DNA from: Thiogranum sp.
GTDB taxonomy: Bacteria > Pseudomonadota > Gammaproteobacteria > DSM-19610
Assembly: GCA_030148915.1 (NCBI GenBank)
Contig: JASBSN010000055.1
Span: forward strand, 1 to 57,808
Length of the DNA: 57,808 nt
Reading direction: 5' to 3'
In this document: positions 128 through 26,969 of the stretch, piece by piece
Layout of the letters: the number at the start of each line of letters is the position of its first letter
Numbering within the stretch: the stretch's first letter is position 1
Translations under genes and position numbers: made by a program
Notes under the pieces: model-generated
What the model saw: the letters and a program-made list of their open reading frames with translations, nothing else
Database searches by the model: none
Told to the model about the DNA's origin: nothing

Positions 128-208
128 GGGTTGCGGCGTGGTATTGCCTCGCTGGCTTAGGGTGCGCGAGCGCACATGCGCTTGCGAGGCAATACCACGC
201 CGCAACCC
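128..208 (-). repeat. Large palindromic element, copy A (25-bp perfect arms, CCTAAGCC core)
   Basis: The left arm 128-152 and right arm 184-208 are perfect reverse complements over 25 bp. The 31-nt centre (153-183) contains a 5-bp hairpin (162-166 with 171-175, loop CGAG). Read on the minus strand the hairpin is preceded by GCAT and followed by CCTAAGCCA, the same layout as the palindromes at 4449-4533 and 26705-26783. The arm sequence is unrelated to the arms of those copies, but is the same sequence as the local 38-bp tandem unit. Confidence 0.85.
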
Positions 209-3037: not shown

Positions 3038-4421
3038 ATCCGTCTACCAATGCAGCGAATGCGGCGCGCAGGCGCCGAAGTGGGCCGGTCAGTGTGGCGA
3101 CTGCGGCGCCTGGAACAGCCTGAGCGAGGCGCTCGCAGTGCTGCCCGGTGCCGGGGGCAAGGCGGCGCGTTTTGCCGGCTATGCCGGCGAGAGCGCGCCA
3201 CGCGTGCAGATGCTCTCGGAGGTTCAGCCCGGCACCGAAGCGCGGCTGTCGATCGGGATCGGAGAACTGGATCGGGTGCTGGGCGGTGGCCTGGTAGCGG
3301 GCTCCGTGGTGTTGATCGGCGGCGACCCCGGCATCGGCAAATCGACCGTGCTGCTGCAGGCGCTGGCGTCATTCGACGCCGATCTGCCGGCGTTATATAT
3401 CACCGGCGAGGAATCGCCCGAGCAGGTGGCGATGCGGGCGCGGCGTCTGGGCCTGGCCGCCGAGAGCCTGCGCCTGCTGGCGGAAACCTCGGTGGAGCGC
3501 ATCGTCGCCCAGGCGCGCGCCGAACAACCGCAGGTAATGGTCATCGATTCGATACAGACGCTCTACACAGAACTGTTGCAGTCGGCGCCGGGCTCGGTGG
3601 CGCAGGTGCGCGAGAGCGCCGCGCAGCTGGTGCGGTTTGCCAAGCAGACGGGCACAGCGCTGTTTCTGGTCGGACACGTCACCAAGGAAGGTACGCTGGC
3701 AGGCCCGCGGGTGCTCGAACACATGGTCGACACGGTGCTGTATTTTGAAGGTGAGCCGGGCGAGCGCTACCGGGTTATTCGCGCCATTAAAAACCGTTTT
3801 GGCGCGGTCAACGAACTGGGCGTGTTCGCCATGACCGACCGCGGTCTTAAAGAAGTGCGCAACCCTTCGTCGATTTTTCTCTCCCGGCACGAACAGCCGG
3901 TGGCCGGTAGCGTCATTCTGGTGAGCATGGAAGGCACCCACCCGCTGCTGGTCGAGGTGCAGGCGCTGGTCGATGACAGCCAGCTGTCCAATCCGCGGCG
4001 CGTCACCGTCGGCCTGGAACACAACCGGCTGGCCATGTTGTTGGCCGTGCAGCACCGCCACGGCGGAGTCTTCATGAGCGATCAGGATGTATTTGTGAAC
4101 GTAGTGGGGGGGGTGCGCGTCAACGAAACGGCGGCCGATCTCGCCGTGCTGCTCGCGGTATTGTCGAGCTTCCGTGATCGGACCGTGCCAAATGATCTGA
4201 TCGTGTTCGGTGAAGTGGGGCTGGCCGGTGAAATCCGCCCGGTGCCCAACGGCCAGCAACGCCTGCGCGAAGCCGCCAAACTTGGCTTCAAGCGCGCCCT
4301 GATACCGGCCTCCAATGCGCCCCGGAGTGCGGTTGAGGGCCTGGAGATCACCGCGGTATCGCGTTACACCGAGGCACTGGAGTGGTTTTCAGCCGAACAG
4401 GCCCCGCAGAAAATACAGTAA
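3024..4421 (+). CDS. radA: DNA repair protein RadA (Sms)
   Basis: Branch-migration ATPase that helps RecA process recombination intermediates. The start is placed at the ATG at 3024 (MAKAKSVYQCSECG), because the zinc finger normally begins a few residues in; the frame is open for nine more codons upstream. Visible features, in order: the four-cysteine finger (CSECG...CGDCG), Walker A GGDPGIGKST, the RadA-specific KNRFG motif, and a C-terminal Lon-protease-like domain lacking protease function. Length is about 465 residues, as in the family. It overlaps alr by 14 bases. A large palindrome begins 27 bases past its stop and may act as the transcript end. Confidence 0.96.
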   Translation: MAKAKSVYQCSECGAQAPKWAGQCGDCGAWNSLSEALAVLPGAGGKAARFAGYAGESAPRVQMLSEVQPGTEARLSIGIGELDRVLGGGLVAGSVVLIGGDPGIGKSTVLLQALASFDADLPALYITGEESPEQVAMRARRLGLAAESLRLLAETSVERIVAQARAEQPQVMVIDSIQTLYTELLQSAPGSVAQVRESAAQLVRFAKQTGTALFLVGHVTKEGTLAGPRVLEHMVDTVLYFEGEPGERYRVIRAIKNRFGAVNELGVFAMTDRGLKEVRNPSSIFLSRHEQPVAGSVILVSMEGTHPLLVEVQALVDDSQLSNPRRVTVGLEHNRLAMLLAVQHRHGGVFMSDQDVFVNVVGGVRVNETAADLAVLLAVLSSFRDRTVPNDLIVFGEVGLAGEIRPVPNGQQRLREAAKLGFKRALIPASNAPRSAVEGLEITAVSRYTEALEWFSAEQAPQKIQ

Positions 4422-4448
4422 CCCCCAAGCTGCACCAACGCCCATAAA

Positions 4449-4533
4449 GCGTCTTTCGCGCGGTGCAAGGTTTTTGGTGCATGCGCCGCCCGCGGCGCCC
4501 TAAGCCAAAAACCTTGCACCGCGCGAAAGACGC
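4449..4533 (+). repeat. Large palindromic element, copy B (29-bp perfect arms)
   Basis: The arms 4449-4477 and 4505-4533 are perfect reverse complements over 29 bp. The 27-nt centre holds a 6-bp hairpin (4483-4488 with 4493-4498) flanked by TGCAT on the left and CCTAAG on the right. A 41-nt core (4471-4511) matches copy C at 37 positions, while the outer arms of B and C are unrelated in sequence. It lies between convergent genes, directly after radA, so a role in ending transcription is possible; there is no terminal U-run outside the stem. Confidence 0.9.
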
Positions 4534-4536
4534 CAG

Positions 4537-4586
4537 CACGGAGGCCACTTACTCATCACGGAGGCCACTTACGGCGCCCTAAGCCA
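4537..4586. repeat. 16-base direct repeat plus a half-copy of the palindrome core
   Basis: CACGGAGGCCACTTAC occurs at 4537-4552 and again at 4557-4572. The second copy runs straight into CGGCGCCCTAAGCCA (4572-4586), identical to 4493-4507 inside palindrome B. This looks like a duplicated or rearranged right half of the element, without a matching left half. Confidence 0.7.
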
Positions 4587-4766
4587 TCGAGGGACTACCC
4601 GACGGGACCTCTGGGTCTGGCGGAGACTCTATCCGATGTTCCCGCATTATGAGCATGAACCCTCAGCTCGATGCTCATCCGTTGAACCTTCTCGCAACGG
4701 ACTGAAAGGCGCTGGGCGGCCGCAGCGTAAAAGAAAAATGCAGACTTCGTCAGCGCGCCGGCAGCT

Positions 4767-26679: not shown

Positions 26680-26704
26680 CCGAAATAAGCGGGTACTCAA
26701 CGCG

Positions 26705-26783
26705 GCTTTTGAGCCGTCCAGGATTTTTGGTGCATGCGCCGCTTGCGGCGTCCTAAGCGAAAAATCCTGGGCGGCTCAAAAGC
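26705..26783 (+). repeat. Large palindromic element, copy C (24-bp arms)
   Basis: Arms 26705-26728 and 26760-26783 pair over 24 bp with a single G-U (T26717 with G26771). The centre holds the hairpin CGCCGC-TT-GCGGCG, flanked by GGTGCAT and TCCTAAGC. The 41-nt core 26724-26764 differs from copy B at four positions, but the outer arms (a GCTTTTGAGCCG sequence here) are unrelated to those of B or A. It lies between dsbC and the gene at 26970. Confidence 0.9.
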
Positions 26784-26969
26784 GGCCCGCAGCAAACCCG
26801 GATCAAAGCCGGCGAGGAGCGCTGAATCCGGCTGCCGCCGGGTAGCGGAAGCAAATGCCGGCGTTGGCGAATCCGTAGCCCGACTCATGGGTCGCAGGGG
26901 TGATCCCGCAGGCTTAGCTTTCCCGCCGGTCTGCCGATCTTATGGCTGAATCAGCAAGGGCGAACGTAA

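Follow-up and report, generated by a model that had tools for sequence, protein, structure and literature searches.

The window analysed here, the whole stretch of 57,808 nucleotides from Thiogranum sp., contains the radA gene, which is separated from the next gene by 345 bp (4422–4766). This spacer holds an intact palindromic hairpin, copy B, followed at 4534–4623 by a shortened linker, a half-element, and its outer flank. Covariance model R1 matched copy B at 4447–4537 with 102.6 bits, and the DNA fold of 4441–4640 gave a z-score of -8.1. Two other hairpins of the same family, copies A and C, lie elsewhere in the window (Table 1). Beyond copy A, at 209–330 on the minus strand, there are more arm-like repeats, degenerate and set tens of bases apart, that resemble GGGTTGCGG..GGCATYGC.

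Analysis of the sequence following copy B revealed a direct repeat of 19 nt (4534–4552 and 4554–4572, 18/19 or 95% identical) with a period of 20 bp, in which the identical stretch is the 16-mer CACGGAGGCCACTTAC. This is a linker block, CAGCACGGAGGCCACTTAC, that is doubled, with the second instance beginning CATCAC, and 3' of it stand half a core, a class II arm, and then TGGGTCTGGCGG. The 15-mer CGGCGCCCTAAGCCA occurs exactly in the core of copy B (4493–4507) and again at the half core; this match to the right side of the copy B core and the 20-bp period had both been described in a first-pass annotation, and both were confirmed. With up to two mismatches, the 15-mer has three matches in the window compared with 0.27 expected from shuffled sequences, ruling out a chance match. 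Past 4586, the class II arm is followed by a class II outer flank recognizable to approximately 4623, which scored +14.2 as an outer and -2.2 as an inner flank with profiles trained on undisputed pairs. The partner hairpin after copy B is missing its inner arm and the adjacent core half, and the remaining half core is orientated wrongly for its flank, like the flipped copies described below. Confusion between identical arms during assembly is less likely at this position, because one arm is gone.

Table 1. Coordinates of the hairpins, the parts of the half-element, and the chimeric cores
Feature	Position	Strand	Remarks
Copy A, class III hairpin	128–208	-	25-nt arms 100% complementary; R1 match 123–211 minus, 68.6 bits
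Copy B, intact class I hairpin	4449–4533	+	arms 4449–4477 and 4505–4533, core between; 29-nt arms 100% complementary
Shortened linker with the inner flank block of class I in tandem duplicate (20-bp period)	4534–4572	+	matches class I inner flank consensus CTGCACCGAAGCC
Half core CGGCGCCCTAAG of partner hairpin, in reverse orientation to its flank	4572–4583	+	exact 15-mer match 4572–4586; flank scoring
Surviving outer arm of class II partner hairpin, inner arm absent	4584–4611	+	matches class II arms
Outer flank of class II (CCAGACCCAGAG type, reverse-complemented)	4612–4623	+	flank profile score
Copy C, class I hairpin	26702–26786	+	arms 93% complementary; R1 match 26700–26790, 77.5 bits
Chimeric cores, one class I and one class II arm	G000:C7:3519 (L106), G000:C118:10399 (L208)		own genome
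Chimeric cores, one class I and one class II arm	G001:C101:40084 (L209), C106:236 (L210), C190:150 (L211), C46:13707 (L168)		

Full-length radA was found in 12 same-genus relatives besides the genome itself. The first-pass annotation had proposed comparing the radA spacer among strains, taking an invariant spacer as an argument against a scar; the site proved to be empty in 12 of 12 relatives, none of which has the family core within 500 nt of radA, and no invariant spacer was seen. One of these spacers, that of G009, was read directly and is empty, its frame having been miscalled in the 500-nt count. The distance from radA to the next gene is approximately 15–110 bp in the readable relatives, compared with the 345 bp observed here, and in G001 the spacer is empty while the family is present elsewhere in the genome. 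The C-terminus of RadA (4380–4421, ..EWFSAEQAPQKIQ) is several residues longer than that of most relatives (..DWFA or similar), and the insertion may have changed the end of the gene.

A family of long hairpins in Thiogranum

The genome (G000) contains approximately 65 long hairpins scattered over many contigs; the catalogue has 68 entries, of which three are contig-end repeats of another entry, and some copies that are weak, cut, or chimeric are not in it. The 14-mer core CGGCGCCCTAAGCC occurs exactly 36 times, and with at most one mismatch it gives 62 genome matches compared with 4 for a reversed control pattern, while model R1 gives 128 matches, with most palindromes counted on both strands. 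Each hairpin consists of a conserved core, GGTGCAT..stem..CCTAAGCC, between arms of 28–30 bp whose sequence varies from copy to copy with complementarity retained. Automatic labelling of the 68 entries assigned 39 to class I, 27 to class II, and 2 to class III, the arm ending before the core in GGTTTTTGG in class I and mostly in TCGATGG in class II.

Structural analysis of 29 aligned elements (alignment A1, which took 29 of 47 clean sequences) indicated 29 outer pairs, an internal loop TGCAT/CCTAAG, and 6 inner pairs. In this alignment, 97.9% of 1,015 cells are paired, 273 cells are changed on both sides (shuffles give 84, slid controls no more than 66), 28 of the 35 pairs are changed on both sides somewhere, and the covariation score is 0.726 compared with 0.189 in shuffles. 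The internal loop separates the long arms from the apical stem, and CCTAAG is its 3' side in all 29 elements; the right side of the core, CCTAAGCC, is therefore not an end, contrary to the earlier hint of an end or processing point. Mean pairwise identity in classes I and II is 0.994 and 0.959 for the internal loop and 0.713 and 0.685 for the arms, so that the arms of separate copies are only about 70% identical. Within the 59 copies counted, Watson-Crick pairing holds for 1,524 of 1,593 arm pairs, and 24 copies are free of mismatches over 27 arm pairs; G-T mismatches outnumber A-C mismatches by 25 to 9 overall and by 18 to 8 when clean copies alone are taken (p = 0.076). These mismatch counts leave out contig-end, indel, or fold-back copies (9 of the 68 entries).

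Comparison of neighbouring hairpins revealed 21 pairs, comprising 13 convergent pairs of class I with class II or III, 2 divergent pairs, 5 same-direction pairs, and 1 I–I pair, with a linker of 52–65 bp in 11 of the 13 convergent ones. Among the five same-direction pairs, three hold a core scored as reversed, one is undecided, and one is unscored. The linker ends are conserved, with CTGCACCGAAGCC beside class I and the mirrored CTCGGACCGAAGCCACCGGAAGT beside class II, and the outer flanks carry CATAAAGC in class I and CCAGACCCAGAG in class II. Outer flank conservation is weak past approximately 25 nt, and the search of the flank alignment for precise element ends and target duplications fixed no boundary (this alignment omits the class III rows and five of the outer flanks). 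Six chimeric I/II cores, two in the genome itself and four in G001, keep the conserved core between unpaired arms, and a short core, GGTGCATGCGCTCGCGCCCTAAGCC, is common to both species in some of them; such cores may have arisen by deletion or may represent an earlier state of the element. No mobile gene was recognized on reading two of the G001 contigs with chimeric cores. One further core (G000:C51:87710, L207) has an unrelated ATTCCGGCCTGCGCCGGAATGACGG-type repeat as its left side.

Core orientation was scored against leave-one-out flank profiles, which replaced an initial score with short consensus strings that left 27 of 66 copies ambiguous. Among 58 scored copies, 50 are standard, 6 reversed, and 2 undecided; one training copy came out undecided. 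This count omits contig-end, indel, or fold-back copies (8 of the 68 entries) and two class III copies. Five of the six reversals exceed 20 bits, and the sixth (C51:93651) is marginal. Some flipped orientations could be assembly errors, as the contigs are of short-read style and several end in these palindromes. Contigs C2, C25, C31, C37, C53, C55, C56, and C87 end inside hairpins, and extended arms resembling fold-back assembly were seen at C37 and C26, from which we conclude that the palindromes break the assembly.

The 26 clusters with resolved gene context comprise 16 tandem, 9 convergent, and 1 divergent location, a divergent share of 1/26 compared with 7/27 for window gaps of at least 30 bp (p = 0.050); outside this set, a simple gene caller placed an ORF across 9 clusters, and another 12 are at contig ends. 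At tandem loci, assigned by hand, hairpin orientation is unbiased with respect to transcription, 9 to 8, a count that leaves out L111 (which would give 10 to 8) and one divergent pair and includes L124 and L133, where the caller also gave an overlapping ORF.

In relatives, R1 matched 6 of 17 genus genomes, own included, and a looser core pattern matched 5 of 20 family genomes (reversed-pattern control, 3 hits in all); the two genome lists differ, G005 being matched by the model only. The loop motif is common to relatives whose arms differ. A scan of species genomes returned six stretches, five titled Thiogranum and one Nitrosomonadales; the latter (L083), without complementary arms, was taken as a chance match. 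No family match was found among viral contigs, phages, and plasmids, and spread by these routes was rejected.

Origin of the half-element and upkeep of the arms

Probably, a REP-like composite entered the spacer downstream of radA in this lineage, and a deletion damaged its second hairpin, of which the half-element is the remnant. In such a composite, a class I hairpin would be followed, after approximately 55 bp of linker, by a class II hairpin in convergent orientation. A small deletion would have joined the linker, ..ACTTACGG, to the core, ..CGGCGCC, at a 3-bp CGG match, and local slippage would have produced the 20-bp duplication. At the join, CGG is common to ..ACTTCCGG of the linker consensus and ..GCGG|CGCC of the core, a probable micro-homology. 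The deletion after radA is deduced from other copies, since no sister strain shows an intact composite there. At C106:32211, a class I hairpin and a half core are similarly arranged, 74 bp apart and more degraded. At C7:3519, a class I arm and core are fused directly to a class II outer arm, with a flank scoring low as outer (+4.2) and -5.4 as inner. Linker duplications comparable to the 20-bp repeat are present in other family copies.

The 15-nt identity with the right side of the copy B core had led the first-pass annotation to propose a partial duplication, aborted copy, or scar of that element. A partial copy and a scar are indeed present, but the half is not that of copy B: a duplicate of copy B should run on into the class I arm CCAAAAACC.., whereas the actual sequence is CCATCGAGGG.. 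and a class II outer flank, and the 15-mer sits in a core common to the whole family. Derivation from copy B itself is therefore extremely unlikely, and because the attached arm belongs to the other class, we regard the half-element as what is left of copy B's partner.

According to PMC8604942, template switching between inverted repeats leads to arm homogenization and spacer inversion, and PMC8794818 also describes loop inversions from template switching. Near-perfect arms and reversed cores are what our comparison found in this family, and they fit template switching during replication; since arm equalizing and loop inversion are its stated outcomes, replication probably keeps remaking the arms. 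Replication would switch template between the arms, so that one arm is copied onto the other and the loop is turned round. The yeast cases in these sources involve spacer changes of 2–5 bp, whereas the spacer here is 27 nt and the process is deduced from about 60 copies of one bacterial family. Template switching does not account for the core, which is far more constant than the arms; because of this conservation, a protein or process probably depends on or recognizes the core.

Arm pairing might instead be kept by a host protein that binds the folded DNA hairpin, a reading that accommodates the internal loop and core being conserved well above the arms and the loop motif being shared by relatives with different arms. 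By itself it does not predict the reversed cores, and conservation is also seen in several chimeric cores whose arms do not pair, which leaves selection by such a protein, in place of template switching, a somewhat doubtful explanation. That the hairpins are 3'-UTR RNA elements (stabilizers, processing sites, or protein-binding sites) whose pairing is kept by RNA selection is less likely still. Their location 3' of genes agrees with such a role, and the mild G-T excess over A-C mismatches would allow for some selection on RNA or single strands, but orientation to transcription shows no preference, G-T pairs make up just 25 of 1,593, and, apart from tRNAs, no Rfam family matched at the gathering threshold. 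This Rfam 15 search covered the window and 14 loci and returned two tRNAs only; miRNA-model matches in L015 were weak and under gathering scores. A Rho-independent terminator was also rejected, as no T run directly follows the hairpin; the TTTTT of class I is part of the arm itself, next to the core, and class II has none.

A further idea, which we consider a long shot, is that a putative strand-transferring enzyme acts on folded single strands at the core GGTGCAT..CCTAAGCC. The I/I and II/II palindromes and the I/II chimeras would then be interconverting strand-exchange products, and the half-element at 4572 an abortive one. The telLL, telRR, and telRL sites of hairpin-ended replicons are a formal parallel to such I/I, II/II, and I/II products. 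On our main reading, the half-element itself is an ordinary deletion scar; the wider value lies in some 65 palindromes of one genome that, with paired arm substitutions and flipping loops, form a readable natural experiment, and the family would make the contribution of template switching to long bacterial hairpins directly testable.

Relation to REP and REPIN repeats

In PMC3733652, REPs are palindromes of 20–40 bp, mostly with stems of 6–9 bp and an end tag, GTAG or CGTC. The GTAG/CGTC REP/BIME repeats described there share with our family the dispersed location mostly 3' of genes and the paired stem changes between copies, and they too often form opposed heterodimers, 20–100 bp apart; in our family, 13 of 21 pairs are convergent and 1 of 26 clusters is divergent. 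Unlike the REPs of that description, the present hairpins are approximately 85 bp long with arms of 28–30 bp and an internal loop, and have no conserved tag and no linked RAYT gene. Copy B, with 29-nt arms and a 27-nt core, and the 29 aligned elements, with 29 outer pairs each, lie beyond the REP size and stem length. The foot consensus, CATAAAGC/CTGCACCGA in class I and CCAGRCCCAGAG/CTCGGACC in class II, contains no column for an unpaired GTAG/CGTC tag. A literature search found no published description of the family and nothing on palindromic repeats in Thiogranum. We call the hairpins a new, unusually large REP-like family.

REPINs mobilized by RAYT transposases (PMC3116915, PMC8266576) likewise have two opposed palindromic units and many copies per genome. 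The family core differs in lying near none of the 19 RAYT-type loci examined in the genus (of 26 matches), on which ground RAYT mobilization was rejected; no mobilizing enzyme was found. One RAYT-like tyrosine transposase gene of the genome (L049, 1126–1866, on G000:C100) scored 67 bits, below the NCBIfam cut-off of 80, and sits between 15-bp inverted repeats, GGGTCAGAGTAAAAA, that are unrelated to the hairpin family.
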